A stretch of DNA of 64,000 nucleotides from Weeksella massiliensis (GCA_000751595.1 CCMH01000004.1:186001-250000), one strand, 5' to 3'. Counted from the stretch's first letter, positions 2,542 through 10,636 are shown. Notes: generated from the letters alone by a model not told the origin. Numbers and translations: made by a program.

Positions 2542-2552
2542 TTTTTTCCTAT

Positions 2553-2592
2553 AAAACGTAAAATAAATAGAATACGTTTTGGATTTTTTTTA
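2553..2592 (+). terminator. Probable weak intrinsic terminator
   Basis: AAAACGTA at 2553-2560 pairs with TACGTTTT at 2573-2580 and is followed by GGA and a run of T. The stem is short and AT-rich, so strength is doubtful. Confidence 0.4.
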
Positions 2593-2678
2593 TTTTAGAG
2601 CTCAGAAATAAAGTAGAATAAAATGATAATTTCATTAAAAAATATTCTTTGACTTCTACTTTTTGTTGTCTAAATTAT

Positions 2679-3425
2679 ATGAATACATCCAAAAATTGTT
2701 TGAATTGCGGAACCGAAGTTTCCCTCAATTTTTGTCCGAAATGTGGCCAAAAAACGACCATTCATCGCTATTCTTTTGCTCATTTTGTCGAACATGATTT
2801 GGTGCATGGGATTTGGCATTTAGACAAAGGAATTCTTTTTACCATAAAAAAGTTACTTCTGCAACCAGGCCATAGTATTCGAGAATTTTTGCAAGGGAAA
2901 AGAGTAAATTATTTTAACGTCATTACATTATTGATTTTGATAATGGGGTTGAGTTATTTTTTGAACGAAGCTTCTCCTATAAAAATCACGGATCTTTTTG
3001 GTGATGAAGAAACCAAAAAGGCCATGTCGTCGATCGAAAAGTTCTCAAAAGAATATCCGAAATTGCAATTATTACTTTTTATTCCGGTGTATTCTTTGTT
3101 TAGTTTTTTGTGGTTTCGAAAAGCAAAACTCAATTTCGTAGAACATTTCATCCTCAATGCCTACCTTATCTCTGGCGTATTTCTTTTGACATTGATTTTT
3201 AGTTTCGCAACTTTTATTTTTTCATCGATTCCTATCCTCCAAATTATATTTCTTCTGACCCAAATCCTTGCAATAGCCTATACTATTTGGTTTTATTATC
3301 AGTTTTTCAGCGCTTATTCTTATTCTAAAATAGCTTTGTTTGCGAGAAGTTTAGCCGTTATCATTTCGGTCTATTTCTTTTATAGTATGATTGGTTTTAT
3401 GATTGGTATGATGAAATTGATTTAA
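2679..3425 (+). CDS. DUF3667 membrane protein with N-terminal zinc ribbon
   Basis: 248 residues from the ATG at 2679; the frame extends up to a TTG at 2649, but the ATG gives the usual start just before the zinc ribbon. Two CxxC knuckles (CLNCG and CPKCG, residues 6-23) form a rubredoxin-like zinc ribbon, followed by the family segment FVEHDLVHGIWHLDKG and PGHSIREFLQGKRVNYFN, and then about four membrane helices. This is DUF3667, common in Bacteroidota and without known function. It stands alone between terminators, in the same direction as its neighbours. Confidence 0.8.
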   Translation: MNTSKNCLNCGTEVSLNFCPKCGQKTTIHRYSFAHFVEHDLVHGIWHLDKGILFTIKKLLLQPGHSIREFLQGKRVNYFNVITLLILIMGLSYFLNEASPIKITDLFGDEETKKAMSSIEKFSKEYPKLQLLLFIPVYSLFSFLWFRKAKLNFVEHFILNAYLISGVFLLTLIFSFATFIFSSIPILQIIFLLTQILAIAYTIWFYYQFFSAYSYSKIALFARSLAVIISVYFFYSMIGFMIGMMKLI

Positions 3426-3559
3426 CGTAAAGTTTTAATCAATATTTGATTATCCGATTGTAAATGAGAAATAAATCAAAAATAATTTATGTATATTTAT
3501 CGAAACAAGTGAGAGGAGTTTTGAGTTTTTCCTACCAATAAAAATTAAATTTAACTGCA

Positions 3560-4429
3560 ATGTACCAAATAAGTGATGCATTAAATGTTGACGGATTTAG
3601 TATACATCCGACTTATAGATTGATTGAACGAAATAATGGAAGTGGAAGTTACAATACATTAGAATTTTTTCAGATACAGATTGTTTTAACTGAAACACAA
3701 ATAACCGTTGAAAATAAAACCTATCCGGTGCCCAAAGGGAGTTTGGTGTTCATAAGTCCGGGTAAAAATGTCACGCTTGGCAAAGGATATCACACTGCAG
3801 GTAATGCATATTTCATTACTTTTTCGTCGTCTTTTTATGAACAATCTGTTAACGATGGCATTTGGCTGAATTCTGAATTGTTTTTTAGTTACACTTCCGA
3901 TATTCATATTACGCCAATCACGATACCGTTAGAGAATGTAGAAGATTTACTTTTCGAACGGCTTTTGCGTTTTCGAGAGAAAAAAACTCCAGGTTTTTAT
4001 GTGGCGGCTGCACACAATTGTGTTGAGGCCTTGTTGCTCGACGGTTTATCGTATGTAGAGGGCCAGAATGAGAACTTAGACGGAAACAAAAAATATAGCG
4101 CCATTGATTACGTGAATCGTTTTCGGATTTTGTTGCAACGCAATTTCAAAAAAGAAAAACAAGTTGCTTTTTATGCCGATCAACTTTTTATCACGCCAAG
4201 ACGTTTGTCGGATACGACAGAAGTGGTGCTCAAAAAAACAGCCAAACAGGTTATTATAGAAAAAATTGTCAATGAAAGTTTACGTATGCTCAAGCACTCT
4301 ACTATGACAATTGCCGAAATTGCTTTTGATTTAGGTTTTAATGATGAAAGTAACTTTAGCACATTCATTAAAAAACACACTCAGAAAACACCAAGAGAAC
4401 TCCGGGATAAAGTGGTCATGAAAAATTAG
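3560..4429 (+). CDS. AraC-family transcriptional regulator
   Basis: 289 residues. The N-terminal half (about 1-165) is a cupin-like sensing domain with alternating beta strands; the C-terminal hundred residues carry two helix-turn-helix units, with the second in the pattern MTIAEIAFDLGFNDESNFST followed by FIKKHTQKTPRELR, the AraC/XylS signature. It probably binds DNA as a monomer or dimer and responds to a small ligand. A terminator hairpin follows 40 bases downstream, so it is its own unit. It lies directly upstream of, and in the same direction as, the pilus-like locus. AraC-type activators control CFA/I-class fimbriae in enterobacteria, so a role there is possible but unproven. Confidence 0.9.
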   Translation: MYQISDALNVDGFSIHPTYRLIERNNGSGSYNTLEFFQIQIVLTETQITVENKTYPVPKGSLVFISPGKNVTLGKGYHTAGNAYFITFSSSFYEQSVNDGIWLNSELFFSYTSDIHITPITIPLENVEDLLFERLLRFREKKTPGFYVAAAHNCVEALLLDGLSYVEGQNENLDGNKKYSAIDYVNRFRILLQRNFKKEKQVAFYADQLFITPRRLSDTTEVVLKKTAKQVIIEKIVNESLRMLKHSTMTIAEIAFDLGFNDESNFSTFIKKHTQKTPRELRDKVVMKN

Positions 4430-4468
4430 TATCTCATTTTTTAGTTTACTTTTCTTACTATAAACTAC

Positions 4469-4516
4469 AACTTCAATATTGGTTTACATTCCTTGTAGAC
4501 AATATTGAAGTTTTTT
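4469..4516 (+). terminator. Intrinsic terminator of the AraC gene
   Basis: AACTTCAATATTG (4469-4481) pairs perfectly with CAATATTGAAGTT (4500-4512) across an 18-base loop, followed by a T-run. Confidence 0.75.
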
Positions 4517-4776
4517 GTTTTTAAGGAGAATTTCGATAGGAGAGAAGCAGTATGAGTCCTCCTAAAAAATAACATATTTTTATTGATAGGCTAAACGAAT
4601 TACGCAAAACAGGTAAATACAATTTTCGGTATAAAAATATATTTTTAATTGACTATATTCTGATTAAGTGTTTAATCTAATATTGTAAAAACTAACAACT
4701 TAAAAGTATAAAATGACAAATGTTTGATGGTTTTTTTGATTATTTTGCCAGGAAATAAAGGGGTAGGAAATAGATT

Positions 4777-4800
4777 AAACTTGTAAAAAGTTACAAGTTT
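4777..4800. promoter_or_regulatory. Perfect palindrome, candidate operator of the pilus-like locus
   Basis: AAACTTGTAA and TTACAAGTTT are perfect 10-base arms around the spacer AAAG. The centre lies about 50 bases upstream of the -7 element, where an activator could sit. As it has no following T-run and is far from any stop codon, it is more likely a dimer binding site than a terminator. Which regulator binds is unknown; the AraC-type protein upstream is one candidate, although AraC sites are usually direct repeats. Confidence 0.5.
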
Positions 4801-4839
4801 TAAGTATTTATTAATAAGTTATTCGTTCAAAATCGAATA

Positions 4840-4873
4840 TATATTTGCACCCGCATTCAGAGAAAAGGAATGC
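4840..4873 (+). promoter_or_regulatory. Promoter -7 element and 5'-end mRNA hairpin of the major subunit gene
   Basis: TATATTTG at 4840-4847 matches the Bacteroidota TAnnTTTG element. No clear TTTG is found at -33. Transcription would start near 4853, exactly where GCATTC (4853-4858) and GAATGC (4868-4873) form a stem with a 9-base loop. A hairpin at the extreme 5' end is a known mRNA-stabilising device of abundant outer-membrane protein genes such as ompA; here it would fit a highly expressed structural subunit. Confidence 0.6.
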
Positions 4874-4934
4874 TTATCACGTAGTAAAGATAATTAAAAA
4901 ATATAAACAACTTTATAAAACAGACAATTAAATT

Positions 4935-5483
4935 ATGAAAAAAATTATTTTATCATCTATCGCATTAGTTTTCGGAGTAGCTGCACAAGCACAAACTTCT
5001 AATACAGGTAACGTTACATTAAATGTACACTTAAAACCTATCCAAACTTTAACTGTTAATCCTAACTTAGACGTTGTGGATTTAACGTATGCGACGAAAG
5101 AAGATTATGCTGGAGGTGTTTCTTCTAAGAAAGATGATCAAATTTCAGTATATAGTACAGGTGGGTTTAGAGTATCTGTAAAAGCTGCAGGTGCATGGTT
5201 GGAAAATAGTCAAGCTGGTGTAAACGGTTTAATCAATGCTAACTCAATCAAAATTAAAGCAGAAGCAGGTTCTAAAGCATTGGCTGGAGCGCAGTACAAT
5301 GAAGTTGCTTTAGATGCTCAAACAGCTCAAACCATTATCTCTTCTACAAAAGGAGCAGTAGACAGAACGTTCAACGTAGACTATAAAGGTGCTTTGGATA
5401 ATGCATATGTAGATTACTACGTAGACGGACAAGATCCTACAACGTACACCACTACTTTAACGTACACGATTGTTGCACAATAA
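4935..5483 (+). CDS. Exported small subunit, putative major pilin of a chaperone-usher-like system
   Basis: 182 residues with a signal peptide ending VAAQAQ (residue 20). The mature protein starts with an alternating strand (GNVTLNVHL, 26-34) that could serve as a donor strand, has the motif TKEDYAGGVS at 54-63, is rich in Ala, Thr and beta-strand sequence, has no cysteines, and ends in an alternating strand TTLTYTIVAQ. The same TK.DY..GVS motif and TTL.Y.I ending recur in the C-terminal domain of the gene two downstream, with similar spacing (about 120-129 residues from motif to end). No named family is recognised. Size, repeat relation, own promoter and following attenuator all fit a polymerised subunit. 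A soluble surface protein of other function cannot be excluded. Confidence 0.6.
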   Translation: MKKIILSSIALVFGVAAQAQTSNTGNVTLNVHLKPIQTLTVNPNLDVVDLTYATKEDYAGGVSSKKDDQISVYSTGGFRVSVKAAGAWLENSQAGVNGLINANSIKIKAEAGSKALAGAQYNEVALDAQTAQTIISSTKGAVDRTFNVDYKGALDNAYVDYYVDGQDPTTYTTTLTYTIVAQ

Positions 5484-5508
5484 GTAGTCGTTATCAAAAT
5501 AACTTTCA

Positions 5509-5541
5509 AAAGTGTTGCATGAATCATGCAGCACTTTTTTT
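5509..5541 (+). terminator. Terminator/attenuator between subunit and chaperone genes
   Basis: AAAGTGTTGCATGA pairs with TCATGCAGCACTTT (one G-U pair) and runs into a tract of T. It sits 25 bases after the subunit stop and before the chaperone gene. As there is no evident promoter in the short gap downstream, partial readthrough probably feeds the next three genes, giving excess of the first product. Confidence 0.75.
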
Positions 5542-5620
5542 AAACCTTGTTCTTTGAACTTTTTGTAACTTGCTTACTCATATTGATATATTCAGTTATA
5601 AACTCTTAAATATTTTGACT

Positions 5621-6418
5621 ATGCGTCACACTCTTTTCTTTTTATTCCTTTTGATATTTTCGCAGTTTGCATTAGCGCAAACCGGAATTTCGGTTTCGCC
5701 TCCTCGTTTATATTTCGAGGCCGATCCGGGGCAGAGTAATACTCAAAAAGTTTTGGTGACCAATGTGAGCAAAAGCAATACGCTCGAGTTAGCCGTTAGT
5801 TTAAGTGATTGGAAATACGATAATCGCGGAGAAAACATTTTGTTTCCTTCGGATAGTTTGGACACCTCTTGTAGTAGTTGGGTAACCATCAAACAGAAAG
5901 ATAACTTTTTTTCTCTGAAACCCGGCGAGTCAAAAGAACTCGACGTTACCATCACCACGCCCAATACCCTGACATCTGAAAATCCAGTGCATACCGCTTT
6001 GTTGTTCGTAACGCAAATGAACCCTATTGATGATGTTGATGGTCGAGGAGCCAATATAAAAGTGTCGGTTCGTTCGGGAATCAAACTTTTGCACCGAACA
6101 TTAGAGAAAAAAAATAGAAAACTCGAAATTCAGAATCTAAAATATCTTCCACAAGAAAAAAAGATCGAATTGCATTTCGAGAATTTAGGAAACATTTGGG
6201 GCGATGGAATCATTTATCCCGAATTGCTCAACACCCAAACCGGAAAGAAAACCAAATTAGATCACACCATTTTCTATAGCATGCCCAAAGATTATCGTAT
6301 CACCGATTTTCCTTTGCCTGCCAATTTAGAAAAAGGCAAATATGTGGCAACGTTTTTATTGGATTATGGAGATGAAAATGCCGTAGAAATGGCCGAATTA
6401 ACTTTTACTTATGAATAG
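5621..6418 (+). CDS. PapD-like periplasmic chaperone
   Basis: 265 residues from the ATG at 5621; the frame reaches a TTG at 5570, but the ATG gives a clean signal peptide (MRHTLFFLFLLIFSQFALAQ). The mature protein opens with GISVSPPRLYFEADPGQSNT, the first-strand pattern of fimbrial chaperones (V-x-P-x-R-x-x-x-x-x-G), followed by VLVTNVSKS and a long immunoglobulin-like domain (to about residue 145) with the closing SVRSGIKLL strand. A second beta domain (about 150-265) has conserved LHFENLGN. This is the two-domain layout of PapD/CsuC-type chaperones that hold pilin subunits by donor-strand complementation. It overlaps the next gene by 8 bases. Sequence identity to any proven chaperone is unmeasured. 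Confidence 0.7.
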   Translation: MRHTLFFLFLLIFSQFALAQTGISVSPPRLYFEADPGQSNTQKVLVTNVSKSNTLELAVSLSDWKYDNRGENILFPSDSLDTSCSSWVTIKQKDNFFSLKPGESKELDVTITTPNTLTSENPVHTALLFVTQMNPIDDVDGRGANIKVSVRSGIKLLHRTLEKKNRKLEIQNLKYLPQEKKIELHFENLGNIWGDGIIYPELLNTQTGKKTKLDHTIFYSMPKDYRITDFPLPANLEKGKYVATFLLDYGDENAVEMAELTFTYE

Positions 6419-7433
6419 ATTATTTTTTCTGATTCTATGGATAGGATGCTCGACCAGCGTGTGGGCTCAAAACTTTTTCGGATGGTCGAATAACTATTTC
6501 AGTATCACCTCTTATGCAGGCGTAACTTCGCCTGAAGCTTTTACCCTTCGCCTTGATGGAAACGGAACCGTTTCGTTGCCTACTTTTCGGATGTCGGTAG
6601 AAGTAAAAGGCCCAATCATGAACGGATACGGTCAAACTTTTCCGACCGAAAAACTCAGCCTTCAACCCATAAGAACCTACGGAGTTGTGAACCAAAATTC
6701 CATTCCTACCATTCCGCAAATTGGGATGCCGCTGAAAACAGCATTGCGCACTTCGGGCGAATGTTTTATTATTCCGCGCTCGCAAGCGGGTATATACAAC
6801 CAAGCTTCGGGTGGAAATCCTTACTATAATTTTCATGTTGTTTGGAATTTAGTTGTTGAAGGAGGAAGTTATTTAGGCGAACTAAAACCCTATTCGGAAT
6901 TTTTAGTGCCTTTGGTTTTTCGATTTTATGATGAGAAGAACAAGATGCAAATTTTTGAAACGTTTTATAAGTTACAAATCGGATATCTTACCGGAACACC
7001 GCCACAACCGAGTCAGAATTATTCGTTGGTGGTAGATGCAAGTGCGGTAAATGCCTTGTTGCAATTTCAGACCAAAAAAGATTATGTAGAAGGCGTTAGC
7101 GCAACCTACCCGAACGGCCTTAAGGTAAATAGTTCTACCGAATATGTAATCAAGGTGAAATCTTTGCAGTCTACTTTTTTGTCCGACAGAAATAACACCT
7201 TACCTCTGAATACCGTGCAGGTAAAAGTATTGCCTGTTTCGGGGCAGAATGCAACGGTGAATCCTATAAATCTTAGTACCGTTTCTCAGCAAATTGCATC
7301 AGGAAAAGCAACGCAAGGGACATCTGTTTTTTATGATATTCAGTACACAACCAAACCCAACGATCAGCAAATCATCATCGCAGAATCCGATCAATACAAA
7401 ACAACGCTTCAGTACGAAATTACCCCTAAATAA
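6411..7433 (+). CDS. Two-domain exported subunit, putative tip adhesin
   Basis: 340 residues with a signal peptide (MNRLFFLILWIGCSTSVWAQ). The N-terminal part (about 21-205) is a beta-rich domain of unknown fold with no counterpart in the small subunit. The C-terminal part (about 205-340) resembles the small subunit at 4935-5483: it has TKKDYVEGVS at 221-230 and ends KTTLQYEITPK. A unique N-terminal domain joined to a pilin-like C-terminal domain is the layout of two-domain tip adhesins (FimH, CfaE). The N-terminal domain could bind a host or surface ligand; this is inference. The start overlaps the chaperone by 8 bases and the stop lies 11 bases before the barrel gene, so the three are one operon. 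Confidence 0.55.
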   Translation: MNRLFFLILWIGCSTSVWAQNFFGWSNNYFSITSYAGVTSPEAFTLRLDGNGTVSLPTFRMSVEVKGPIMNGYGQTFPTEKLSLQPIRTYGVVNQNSIPTIPQIGMPLKTALRTSGECFIIPRSQAGIYNQASGGNPYYNFHVVWNLVVEGGSYLGELKPYSEFLVPLVFRFYDEKNKMQIFETFYKLQIGYLTGTPPQPSQNYSLVVDASAVNALLQFQTKKDYVEGVSATYPNGLKVNSSTEYVIKVKSLQSTFLSDRNNTLPLNTVQVKVLPVSGQNATVNPINLSTVSQQIASGKATQGTSVFYDIQYTTKPNDQQIIIAESDQYKTTLQYEITPK

Positions 7434-7444
7434 TAGATTTTTTT

Positions 7445-10258
7445 ATGTTTCGATTGCTCCTCCCAAAAATCATTTTACTTTTTGGACTGTTGTTCTTGGC
7501 CACTCCTGTCAGCGCACAATCGGTATCGATGGATGTGAAAAAAGACAAAGAAACGGCCAAAAAAAATCTGATCGATATGGTGGTAACATTGCGCAACAAC
7601 AGCAATGTTCCTTTTTCGGGTCGATTGAAAGTTCAGCTTCCGAAAGGTTTCAGAAGTATTTCGGGGCAAAATATCGAGGTGCAATTAGAGGCAAACGAAA
7701 CGCAATACATTCCGATTAAAATTTTGGTTCAAGTCGCGGCACAAGCTGGATCTTCTCAAATCAAAATCAATCTCGAAAATCAAAACCAAAAAGCCATTCA
7801 AGAATTCGTCCTGAAGCAATCGATCGAAGAAAACAATACGCTCCGTCTCTACAGCAAGCAACCGATAGTGTACATTCACAACCCAAACGATTCGCTTGTT
7901 TTGCAAGTTGGCGTGTCGAATCTCGGAAATCGTGCGCAAGAAACGAGTTTGGTTTTTAGCATTCCGGGAATGGTGGGCGAGAAAAATTTCTTCGAAGTAA
8001 AAGGTCGAATCCATGTAGAACAAGATTCTGTTTTTCAATTTAAATTTCTTCCTTCGGCTGCTTTGCTCGAGCGACCTCAGTTCAATATTCACGTAGCCGG
8101 AATGCGAGGTTCTGACAAAGAATTGTTTGGTAATTTGATTATTCCGGTGCAAAATATTACCTCCGTTAAACGTTTTCAAGACATCGAATTGGCGCGTCAA
8201 TCAGCAGCTTTGCGACATAATAGTTTGAGTGCAAGTTATAGAACGTCGGGCAGAGACAATGGCGTGTACCAATTGCGCGGCGCCGGAAATGTGAATCTAT
8301 CGGCCGGATATTTGGCGTTTAGTGGAAACTTGTACCAATCGATTAACGACCCGAATGTGGTGTTGAGCAATACGTATGTGGGCTATCATTATGAAAATTA
8401 TCAACTTACGATAGGAAATCTCAACAAATCGATGGAAATGGCTTTGTTTGGGCGAGGTATTCAGTTGAGTGGACAAAGCAAAGATGAGTCAAAATCATTG
8501 GAAATTGGTTTTATTGATCAGAATTTTAATTTGATCGAACGAAACGCTTTTCTCGATCATGGATACGCTTTTTATACCGCAGGAACTTTGGGCGCCAAGA
8601 ACGAAACGCGTCGTACATCGGCTTCTTATGTGTATAAAAAAGATGTGTACGAAAAAGCCAATTCTCATTTGCTTAGTTTGGATCAGCATTATGCCTGGGG
8701 ACGCGATTGGAACGGAAGTGTGAGTCTTTTTGGAGGACTTAGTACGTATGAAATCAACAACCGAACCGAGCCTTCTTTTGCCGTAGAAACGCAATACAAT
8801 GGCGATTGGCGTCAGACCAAATTAACGGGAAATTATTTTTTTAGTTCTGGATTTTTTCCAGGAAATCGACGCGGAATGTTGCAAATTCAACAAAATGCGT
8901 ATCGCAATATCAACGACAAAAAAATGGTGTACGGAAGTTTTTTCTATTCCGATTTTTCACCTAAATCTTATACCTATTTAATGAACTTAGATGCCTCGAA
9001 TTTGCGTTTCGAAAGCGGTATAAGTTTCATGCAATACAAGAATTTTTCTTTTCGATTGGGTATGCTTTATCAAAGCGAACAAAGTACAAGTTTTGGTGGA
9101 AATGGTATGACCGAATCGAAAGAACTCGACATGAAAACCTATCGCTTGCTGCAACAAATGACATGGCTCAGTGGCAATTCAAAACACTCGATTTCGGCTT
9201 CTTTCGAAGAAGGTTTGTCGTCGGTTTCTTTAGAAGATGAAATCCAACCGCAATTTAAACTGAATGCTACCTATCGCTTTAAATCTTTCGCTTTCAATAC
9301 GATGTATCAATACGGGAGTTTTTATTTGTCGGAGTTTTTAAGTTCGTTTTATCGTTGGTACGGCAACCAAACTTTTCAGCGTGTTACGGCTTCTTTGGCG
9401 TTTGAACAAAATGCTGCACACAACAAACTGATGATGAGTTCGGGCTTGGCGTACACGCAAGATTTCAATATCGGACAAACGCCTTCAGCTTTTCTCAACC
9501 TTCGTTATCTTCCTACCGAAAACTGGCAATTGTACCTCAATACGTCATGGTATCGGTATGATATGAATCGACAAATGGCGCAAAATTTTGCCAATAGCAG
9601 CCATATGCTGATGGTGGAAGGCGGCATTACGTATAGCTTTAAAGGTAGAGCTCCTTCGCCCGGAAAAAAAGCAACCCTTTCGGCTTTGGTGTATTATGAT
9701 CACAACCAAAATGGGGTGTTTGATGAAGCGGATGAAGTGGCAACCGATTATTTGATAACGCTAAACAACACGACTTTCAAGACGGATCTCAACGGACAAT
9801 TTTCTTACAGATCGTTGCCATTTGGCACCTATAAATTGAAACCAAGTGCGCAAAAAGGTTGGTTTAGTGTGGCGCAAGAAGTGGTGGTGGATCAATTTGT
9901 AACGCAACTTGCCATTCCGTTGTACCAAAGTGGAACGGTTCGTGGGCAAATCAAATATTGGTTTGATGAAAAAGCTTCGATGGAAATAGATCCGCAATAT
10001 AGTGGAATCGTATTTCAGGTGTCGCAAGACGGACGGTTTATTCAGCGTATTTCGACCAACGAAGAAGGAGAATTCATCTTGTTTCTACCCACCGGAAATT
10101 ACCAAATAGAACTCAATGAAAACTCACTTCCTGCCCAAACACAAGTGTCAGAAGCCCTACAAAACTTCCAGATAGAAGCCGGGAAAATCACGCAATTACC
10201 CATTTTCGAACTAAAAGTGAACACCAAAAAAGTGAACATTAAAAAATTCGGTAGTTAG
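7445..10258 (+). CDS. Large outer-membrane barrel protein, usher-like
   Basis: 937 residues, signal peptide ending TPVSAQ (about residue 25). About 26-235 looks like two beta-sandwich domains (for example DMVVTLRNNSNVPFSG). About 240-730 is rich in alternating aromatic strands and turns, the look of a big outer-membrane beta-barrel. From about 740 there is a carboxypeptidase-regulatory/SdrD-B-like domain with a D-x-N-x-N-G-x-x-D calcium-like loop (DHNQNGVFDEAD, 752-763) and TDLNGQFSYRSLPFGTYKL, and a second such domain to the end. Ushers also combine N-terminal periplasmic domain, a large barrel and two C-terminal beta-sandwich domains, at 800-900 residues. A plug domain was not identified. 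The last gene of the operon; no obvious terminator follows. Confidence 0.55.
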   Translation: MFRLLLPKIILLFGLLFLATPVSAQSVSMDVKKDKETAKKNLIDMVVTLRNNSNVPFSGRLKVQLPKGFRSISGQNIEVQLEANETQYIPIKILVQVAAQAGSSQIKINLENQNQKAIQEFVLKQSIEENNTLRLYSKQPIVYIHNPNDSLVLQVGVSNLGNRAQETSLVFSIPGMVGEKNFFEVKGRIHVEQDSVFQFKFLPSAALLERPQFNIHVAGMRGSDKELFGNLIIPVQNITSVKRFQDIELARQSAALRHNSLSASYRTSGRDNGVYQLRGAGNVNLSAGYLAFSGNLYQSINDPNVVLSNTYVGYHYENYQLTIGNLNKSMEMALFGRGIQLSGQSKDESKSLEIGFIDQNFNLIERNAFLDHGYAFYTAGTLGAKNETRRTSASYVYKKDVYEKANSHLLSLDQHYAWGRDWNGSVSLFGGLSTYEINNRTEPSFAVETQYNGDWRQTKLTGNYFFSSGFFPGNRRGMLQIQQNAYRNINDKKMVYGSFFYSDFSPKSYTYLMNLDASNLRFESGISFMQYKNFSFRLGMLYQSEQSTSFGGNGMTESKELDMKTYRLLQQMTWLSGNSKHSISASFEEGLSSVSLEDEIQPQFKLNATYRFKSFAFNTMYQYGSFYLSEFLSSFYRWYGNQTFQRVTASLAFEQNAAHNKLMMSSGLAYTQDFNIGQTPSAFLNLRYLPTENWQLYLNTSWYRYDMNRQMAQNFANSSHMLMVEGGITYSFKGRAPSPGKKATLSALVYYDHNQNGVFDEADEVATDYLITLNNTTFKTDLNGQFSYRSLPFGTYKLKPSAQKGWFSVAQEVVVDQFVTQLAIPLYQSGTVRGQIKYWFDEKASMEIDPQYSGIVFQVSQDGRFIQRISTNEEGEFILFLPTGNYQIELNENSLPAQTQVSEALQNFQIEAGKITQLPIFELKVNTKKVNIKKFGS

Positions 10259-10636
10259 GATTGGTTTTGAAGAGATGAGTTTTTTACAAAACAACAATCA
10301 ATGAAATGCAAATTTGTTTTATCAAGTAAATCTTCGTAAATTAGCAAATTATGTTGCGAATACATGAAGTTAATTTATTCAACATATCAATTTTTATTTT
10401 GTGCAAAAAGTCTCGTTTCTTCTTTGGCTTATTTGCATGATGATTCTTATATGCGATGCTCGAAAGAGTTTATCAACTAAGCCCTGCTGAAACTTAAAAA
10501 GCAGGGAAAAACACCTTACGAAATTTAACGTTTAATTTATATCATCGATTTTCTTTTTTTCGATCCTATAAACCTATCTATTGAATACGTTTTTTGAGTT
10601 TGAAAAAGGGAAGTTCATCTTACAAAAAAAAATATT
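10259..10636. other. 378-bp intergenic region after the barrel gene
   Basis: Holds no clear gene. A short broken frame (10364-10528) and a 7-base inverted repeat (CCCTGCT...AGCAGGG, 10482-10506) without a T-run are present. No convincing TAnnTTTG element was found for the Rnk-like gene that follows. Confidence 0.5.
10364..10528 (+). pseudogene. Possible remnant of a small gene
   Basis: An ATG at 10364 gives 38 codons to a TAA at 10478-10480; reading on in the same frame gives ALLKLKKQGKTPYEI and a second TAA at 10526-10528. The part after the first stop has a coding-like look (Lys-rich, helical), as if one small gene was interrupted by a stop. No family is recognised, and chance is quite possible over such a length. 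Confidence 0.2.

Follow-up and report, generated by a model that had tools for sequence, protein, structure and literature searches.

Chaperone-usher (CU) pili have been placed in proteobacteria, cyanobacteria and Deinococcota, with the archaic CU pili (Csu, CupE) showing the widest known phylogenetic spread and Bacteroidota unnamed among their carriers (PMC9452303, PMC10104325). The type V (FimA/Mfa1) pili of Bacteroidia are built from lipoprotein precursors that are processed at the surface, with neither a chaperone nor an usher. Here, we describe a locus of Weeksella massiliensis whose four genes very probably build a CU-type pilus belonging to a branch of Bacteroidota. It lies in a 64,000-nucleotide stretch of DNA (GCA_000751595.1, CCMH01000004.1:186001-250000), hereafter the window. 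If this reading is correct, these pili and the type V pili would both be donor-strand filaments of Bacteroidota that are otherwise unrelated, and the subunits of the window, in which the lipobox cysteine is missing, are not lipoproteins.

The closest described systems are the E. coli type 1 (FimA/FimC/FimD/FimH) and P pili (PapC/PapD), with which the locus shares its gene set, the roles of the encoded proteins and a two-domain tip, together with a PapD-like chaperone carrying equivalents of Arg8 and Lys112, a strand-6 motif in the usher and counterparts of the usher domains CTD1 and CTD2. However, the E. coli ushers have 24 strands and a plug, whereas that of the window is predicted to be plugless with about 26 strands; in addition, two Ig-like N-terminal domains replace the classic N-terminal domain, no match is found at the level of Pfam, and the host belongs to another phylum. 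The tip and pilin folds have some of their nearest solved structures in the CFA/I, CS1 and ECP systems (CfaB, CfaE, CooA, EcpA), although usher architecture differs from theirs. The csu genes are ordered subunits-chaperone-usher-tip, and the same order is found in one of the two locus types described below (type II), while the usher of the window family differs from archaic ushers in its missing plug. A further relative is provided by the TLP filaments, which we take to be the pond-water filaments of CryoSeek, with cryo-EM structures for TLP-1a and TLP-1b (PDB 9ikj, 9ikk). Their subunits are homologous to those of distant loci of our set and share a fold with the tip pilin domain; at about 237 residues they are larger, and the TLP entry names neither the source organism nor the assembly genes. 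Pond-water filaments found by the same approach were considered not conclusively identified in a 2026 review (PMC12967142). The working principle of the system is already known; the Bacteroidota branch, the plugless usher and their spread were not found described in the open-licence literature.

Gene layout, spread and origin

Four exported proteins are encoded in one run on the plus strand: a pilus subunit (pilin) of 182 residues including its signal peptide (4935..5483), a PapD-like periplasmic chaperone of 265 residues (5621..6418), a two-domain tip of 340 residues (6411..7433) and an usher-like outer-membrane barrel of 937 residues (7445..10258). For the chaperone, the ATG at 5621 is the most likely start and 6418 the stop; its residues are numbered from the codon at 5615. 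Its gene overlaps that of the tip by 8 bp, and 11 bp separate the tip and barrel genes. All four proteins carry a hydrophobic N-terminal signal peptide, which ends around A-Q or A-x-A and has no lipobox cysteine. The order and coordinates of the genes, their signal peptides and the tight spacing of genes 2-4 had been claimed in a preliminary description of the window, and all were found as described. No CU family was returned for the window proteins by Pfam or NCBIfam: no member scored above the cut-off of the Pfam usher, PapD and pilin models, and PF00577 (Usher) has no match in the genome. PDB sequence searches with the single proteins and with chaperone, usher and tip profiles likewise gave nothing of note.

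The four-gene run is nevertheless more than chance, because homologous genes recur together in other genomes. Barrel relatives are present in 41 of 148 genomes of the host's family, covering 9 of its 33 genera. All 40 usher-seeded loci contain at least one subunit-type gene and 39 contain the chaperone; in the remaining locus, L048, the chaperone is lost to the contig end. When the chaperone by itself was used to scan named genomes independently, 80 loci were obtained, each with tip and usher downstream; a subunit lies upstream in 78 of them, and the contig ends there in the other two (L140, L205). Chaperone and usher are also found near 19 of 20 distant, subunit-seeded (TLP-type) loci, the twentieth being a 5.9-kb contig. 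Co-occurrence of the four genes, for which the preliminary description had looked to a neighbourhood survey, therefore holds in 40/40, 80/80 and 19/20 loci, barring contig ends.

Two arrangements were observed: subunit(s)-chaperone-tip-usher, as in the window, and subunits (1-7)-chaperone-usher-tip, the type II order. Carriers include Chryseobacterium, Elizabethkingia, Myroides, Empedobacter, Algoriella and Flavobacterium species such as F. hibernum, and further Arenibacter, Niabella, Dysgonomonas, a Leadbetterella MAG and a member of the Sphingobacteriaceae. A class-wide scan detected the chaperone profile in 45 of 295 genomes and 30 of 156 genera, and in more distant genomes, searched for the barrel only, a chaperone adjoins a barrel of 850-1,300 residues. 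The set reaches Dysgonomonadaceae, Chitinophagaceae, Sphingobacteriaceae, Leadbetterellaceae and many further families. Thus, of the earlier proposal of a separate CU branch of Flavobacteriia, the separate branch stands, but its confinement to Flavobacteriia does not.

Individual loci show variations on this plan. In the type II loci L056-L061, tandem and partly near-identical subunit genes precede the chaperone, the usher and a tip of 477 residues, with up to seven tandem subunit genes in L060:8738-13991. Both locus types can coexist in one Chryseobacterium genome. At L031:3632-4093 and at equivalent positions in other Chryseobacterium loci, the AraC gene and the main subunit are separated by a strongly diverged pilin-like gene of about 144-153 residues; its product keeps an N-terminal donor-strand-like segment, lacks much of the remainder, and is possibly a minor subunit or terminator. 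The usher of Empedobacter sedimenti (L021, L206), which has an in-frame stop or is split into two frames, is apparently a decayed copy, and the chaperone gene of one TLP-type locus is split into two frames (L244:4820-5739).

Upstream of the pilus genes, an AraC-type transcription regulator is encoded at 3560..4429 on the plus strand (PF12833, E 6.6e-17). Its relatives adjoin pilus genes in 91 loci, and it is probably the regulator of the pilus genes. A candidate promoter element, TATATTTG (4840..4847, plus strand), matches TAnnTTTG, which we take to be the Bacteroidota -7 consensus; the -33 box is weak. The interval between the subunit and chaperone genes harbors a strong intrinsic terminator (5508..5538, plus strand), a 14-pair hairpin followed by a T-run, in a stretch with a minimum free energy of -20.5 kcal/mol (z -4.46). 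This hairpin was found by folding; the scanner missed it because the stem uses up the T-run. Similar hairpins occur in 48 of 78 loci, compared with 9 of 390 shuffles. The GC3 of the subunit gene is 0.225, against 0.40-0.415 for the other three genes and a window mean of 0.309 (sd 0.044). Together, the terminator and the subunit GC3 fit high pilin expression.

Weeksella virosa has an empty site, in which the genes flanking window positions 2542-10636 are only about 450 bp apart (L256:5669-6115). The approximately 8 kb absent there comprise the gene at 2649-3425, the AraC gene and the pilus genes. The usher tree joins the window sequence to Myroides indicus (SH-aLRT 99) rather than to other Weeksellaceae. 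The pilus set of the window was likely acquired horizontally.

Chaperone, subunit and tip

The chaperone profile aligned by hhalign with nine E. coli K-12 CU chaperones at a probability of 95.5% and an E-value of 1.5e-8 over 198 columns, in comparison with 0.28 for a reversed decoy and 0.024 for pilins. The alignment spans both Ig domains, in agreement with the PapD-like two-domain chaperone proposed earlier; the protein opens GISVSPPRLYFE, the fimbrial-type opening named in the preliminary description. In the alignment, SPPR falls opposite the Arg8 motif and GIKLLHR opposite IKLYYRP, the Lys112 motif. The Arg8 equivalent is invariant in a 27-row chaperone alignment and present in 45 of 48 sequences of a wider set; the Lys112 equivalent is kept in 36 of the 48, with His as the usual replacement in type II loci. 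Searched singly against Pfam, 4 of 27 chaperones gave PapD_N, at sub-threshold scores only, and further Ig families, WxLIP and MSP among them, also appeared below threshold. By its sequence, the protein is a homolog of the PapD family that retains both key residues. The Class 5 (FGA) CU chaperones lack the N-terminal Arg (PMC4133393), whereas the window-family chaperone has its equivalent; given its presence in 45 of 48 sequences, the chaperone is closer to the FGS type.

In the mature N-terminus of 69 subunits, positions 29, 31 and 33 are occupied by a large hydrophobic residue in 99-100% of sequences, and positions 28, 30 and 32 in 0-16%. This alternating segment, TSNTGNVTLNVHLK in the window (4995..5036, plus strand), is the putative donor strand. 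The tip combines an N-terminal Ig-like domain, putatively for binding, with a C-terminal pilin domain for which hhalign shows homology to the subunit (99.4%, E 5e-22). The alignment of the two begins just behind the donor-strand segment of the subunit, and the pilin domain of the tip has no donor strand of its own. The structural model of the tip (pLDDT 88) has CfaE among its matches, covering both domains, along with EcpA, CooA, CsuE and other CU pilins. Comparison of the subunits with the E. coli pilins and EcpA by hhalign detected no sequence link.

The usher-like barrel

The AlphaFold model of the usher, computed with 38 sequences (pLDDT 83, pTM 0.56), comprises a signal peptide, two Ig-like domains (residues 27-243), a barrel of about 26 strands (259-732) and two C-terminal β domains (742-925). 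In a Foldseek search of the PDB, the nine best matches are all FimD or PapC (E 3e-14 to 5e-11). The preliminary description had named a barrel of 16 or fewer strands without a plug as the contrary outcome; about 26 strands are predicted. In VIA, PapC is matched with a Z score of 16.6 over 360 residues. The sequence evidence is weaker but specific: against E. coli ushers, hhalign gave E-values of 1.1e-4 (alignment A2, residues 659-906) and 7e-5 (wider set), better than reversed ushers (0.03-0.04), TonB receptors (0.07-0.17) and LptD (0.12-0.15). The C-terminal domains (9662..10255, plus strand) align with CTD1 and CTD2 of FimD.

Residues 322-345 of the usher (8408..8479, plus strand) are the counterpart of FimD strand 6 in the hhalign alignment, with LTIGNLNKSMEMALFGRGIQLSG aligned to LTLGDGYTQGDIFDGINFRGAQLAS of FimD. 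The plug comes next in FimD, whereas in the model the chain runs directly into the next strand, and no plug-sized insert is present at the β6-β7 hairpin in 16 usher rows that cover both locus types and distant members. A plug elsewhere inside the barrel was considered and rejected, as the model contains no loop long enough. The usher thus appears to lack a plug domain, with model and alignment in agreement; the preliminary description had likewise not seen the classic plug and had named the barrel its weak point. This absence weakens membership in the classic usher family and does not lower the claim that the protein works like an usher.

A second Bacteroidota usher family (L108-L111, L114) has a plug and is preceded by several short exported subunits; its usher C-terminus is fused to SPOR domains in L108 and L111. 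Their alignment with E. coli ushers continues through the plug (E 1.6e-5), and over the CTDs they match the window usher family (E 3.6e-14). Plug-bearing and plugless ushers thus coexist in Bacteroidota, and loss of the plug would be the simplest reading of the plugless family.

Related filaments, assembly and alternative readings

The best PDB match of the subunit profile for the window's own family is TLP-2/TLP-1, at an E-value of 0.058 that is not significant alone. Independently of this profile, the pilin domain of the tip has TLP-1a as its best structural match (Z 9.4). A 54-residue piece of TLP-2 matches one of 395 Bacteroidota genomes, and the match is a subunit adjoining a chaperone and an usher (L105; E 4.9e-9 against TLP-2); the link between subunits and TLP is direct for distant family members only. 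The ushers of the TLP branch gave a negative result against E. coli ushers by hhalign (0.043, compared with 0.0023 for the reversed decoy) and match the window usher family at E 1e-58; the TLP branch is therefore tied to ushers only through the window's usher family. Neither the TLP name nor the PDB codes led to a relevant paper in the open-licence literature, and the CryoSeek authors may already have seen part of the link between TLP and these genes.

The gene set, the homology of the chaperone, the usher model and the homology of tip and subunit all support the CU pilus reading of the preliminary description, and we weighed it against two others. In the first, the locus would be another kind of outer-membrane export system, with an ordinary barrel pore resembling porins, LptD or TonB receptors and with Ig proteins exported as non-polymerizing adhesins. 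LptD has 26 strands too, porins tie with PapC in VIA Z (over an aligned length of about 300 residues or fewer), and the barrel lacks both a plug and a Pfam usher match. However, Foldseek places ushers ahead of LptD and BtuB (about 1e-9) by about five orders of magnitude, TonB receptors and LptD remain at decoy level in hhalign, and the usher-like C-terminal domains, the strand-6 motif, the constant linkage with a PapD-like chaperone and the formation of filaments by related TLP subunits all make such a pore improbable.

Slightly less probable still is a CU product that is not a long pilus, for instance a short surface adhesin or a thin coat, assembled from the tip plus one or a few subunits. 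Length is not readable from sequence, and the window has a single subunit gene; against this, the subunit looks set up for high expression by its terminator and GC3, sister loci contain up to seven tandem subunit copies, and 16 chains are modeled in the TLP filament structure.

For the CU pilus, we propose a plausible route of assembly. The signal peptides point to export of all four parts to the periplasm by Sec. As in PapD, the chaperone would lend its G1 strand to each subunit, and the conserved Arg8/Lys112-type residues would anchor the subunit C-terminus. Complexes of chaperone and subunit would then dock at the barrel, probably via the N-terminal Ig-like and the C-terminal domains of the usher, and the fiber would grow by donor-strand exchange, in which the N-terminal strand of the incoming subunit displaces the chaperone strand in the previous one. 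Since its pilin domain has no donor strand, the tip could only exit first, presumably carrying the binding domain. With no plug predicted inside the barrel, the pore would have to be gated in another way, the usher's own N-terminal Ig domains or the tip being the most likely candidates. The terminator after the first gene may keep pilin in excess over the assembly machinery.

We rate as an even chance that plugless ushers with about 26 strands, gated by N-terminal Ig domains, form a further major CU class specific to Bacteroidota, of which the freshwater TLP-1a/1b filaments are one branch; that branch would thereby become assignable to genes, an assembly machine and a phylum. The match to TLP-1a/1b would give a gene set to one filament of the pond-water class (PMC12967142). 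A plugless usher separates "pore" from "plug" and would make usher gating directly testable. If the CU reading is true, Bacteroidota, a large phylum with members in soil, water, gut and mucosal habitats, possess a widespread CU branch of their own that Pfam and NCBIfam miss.
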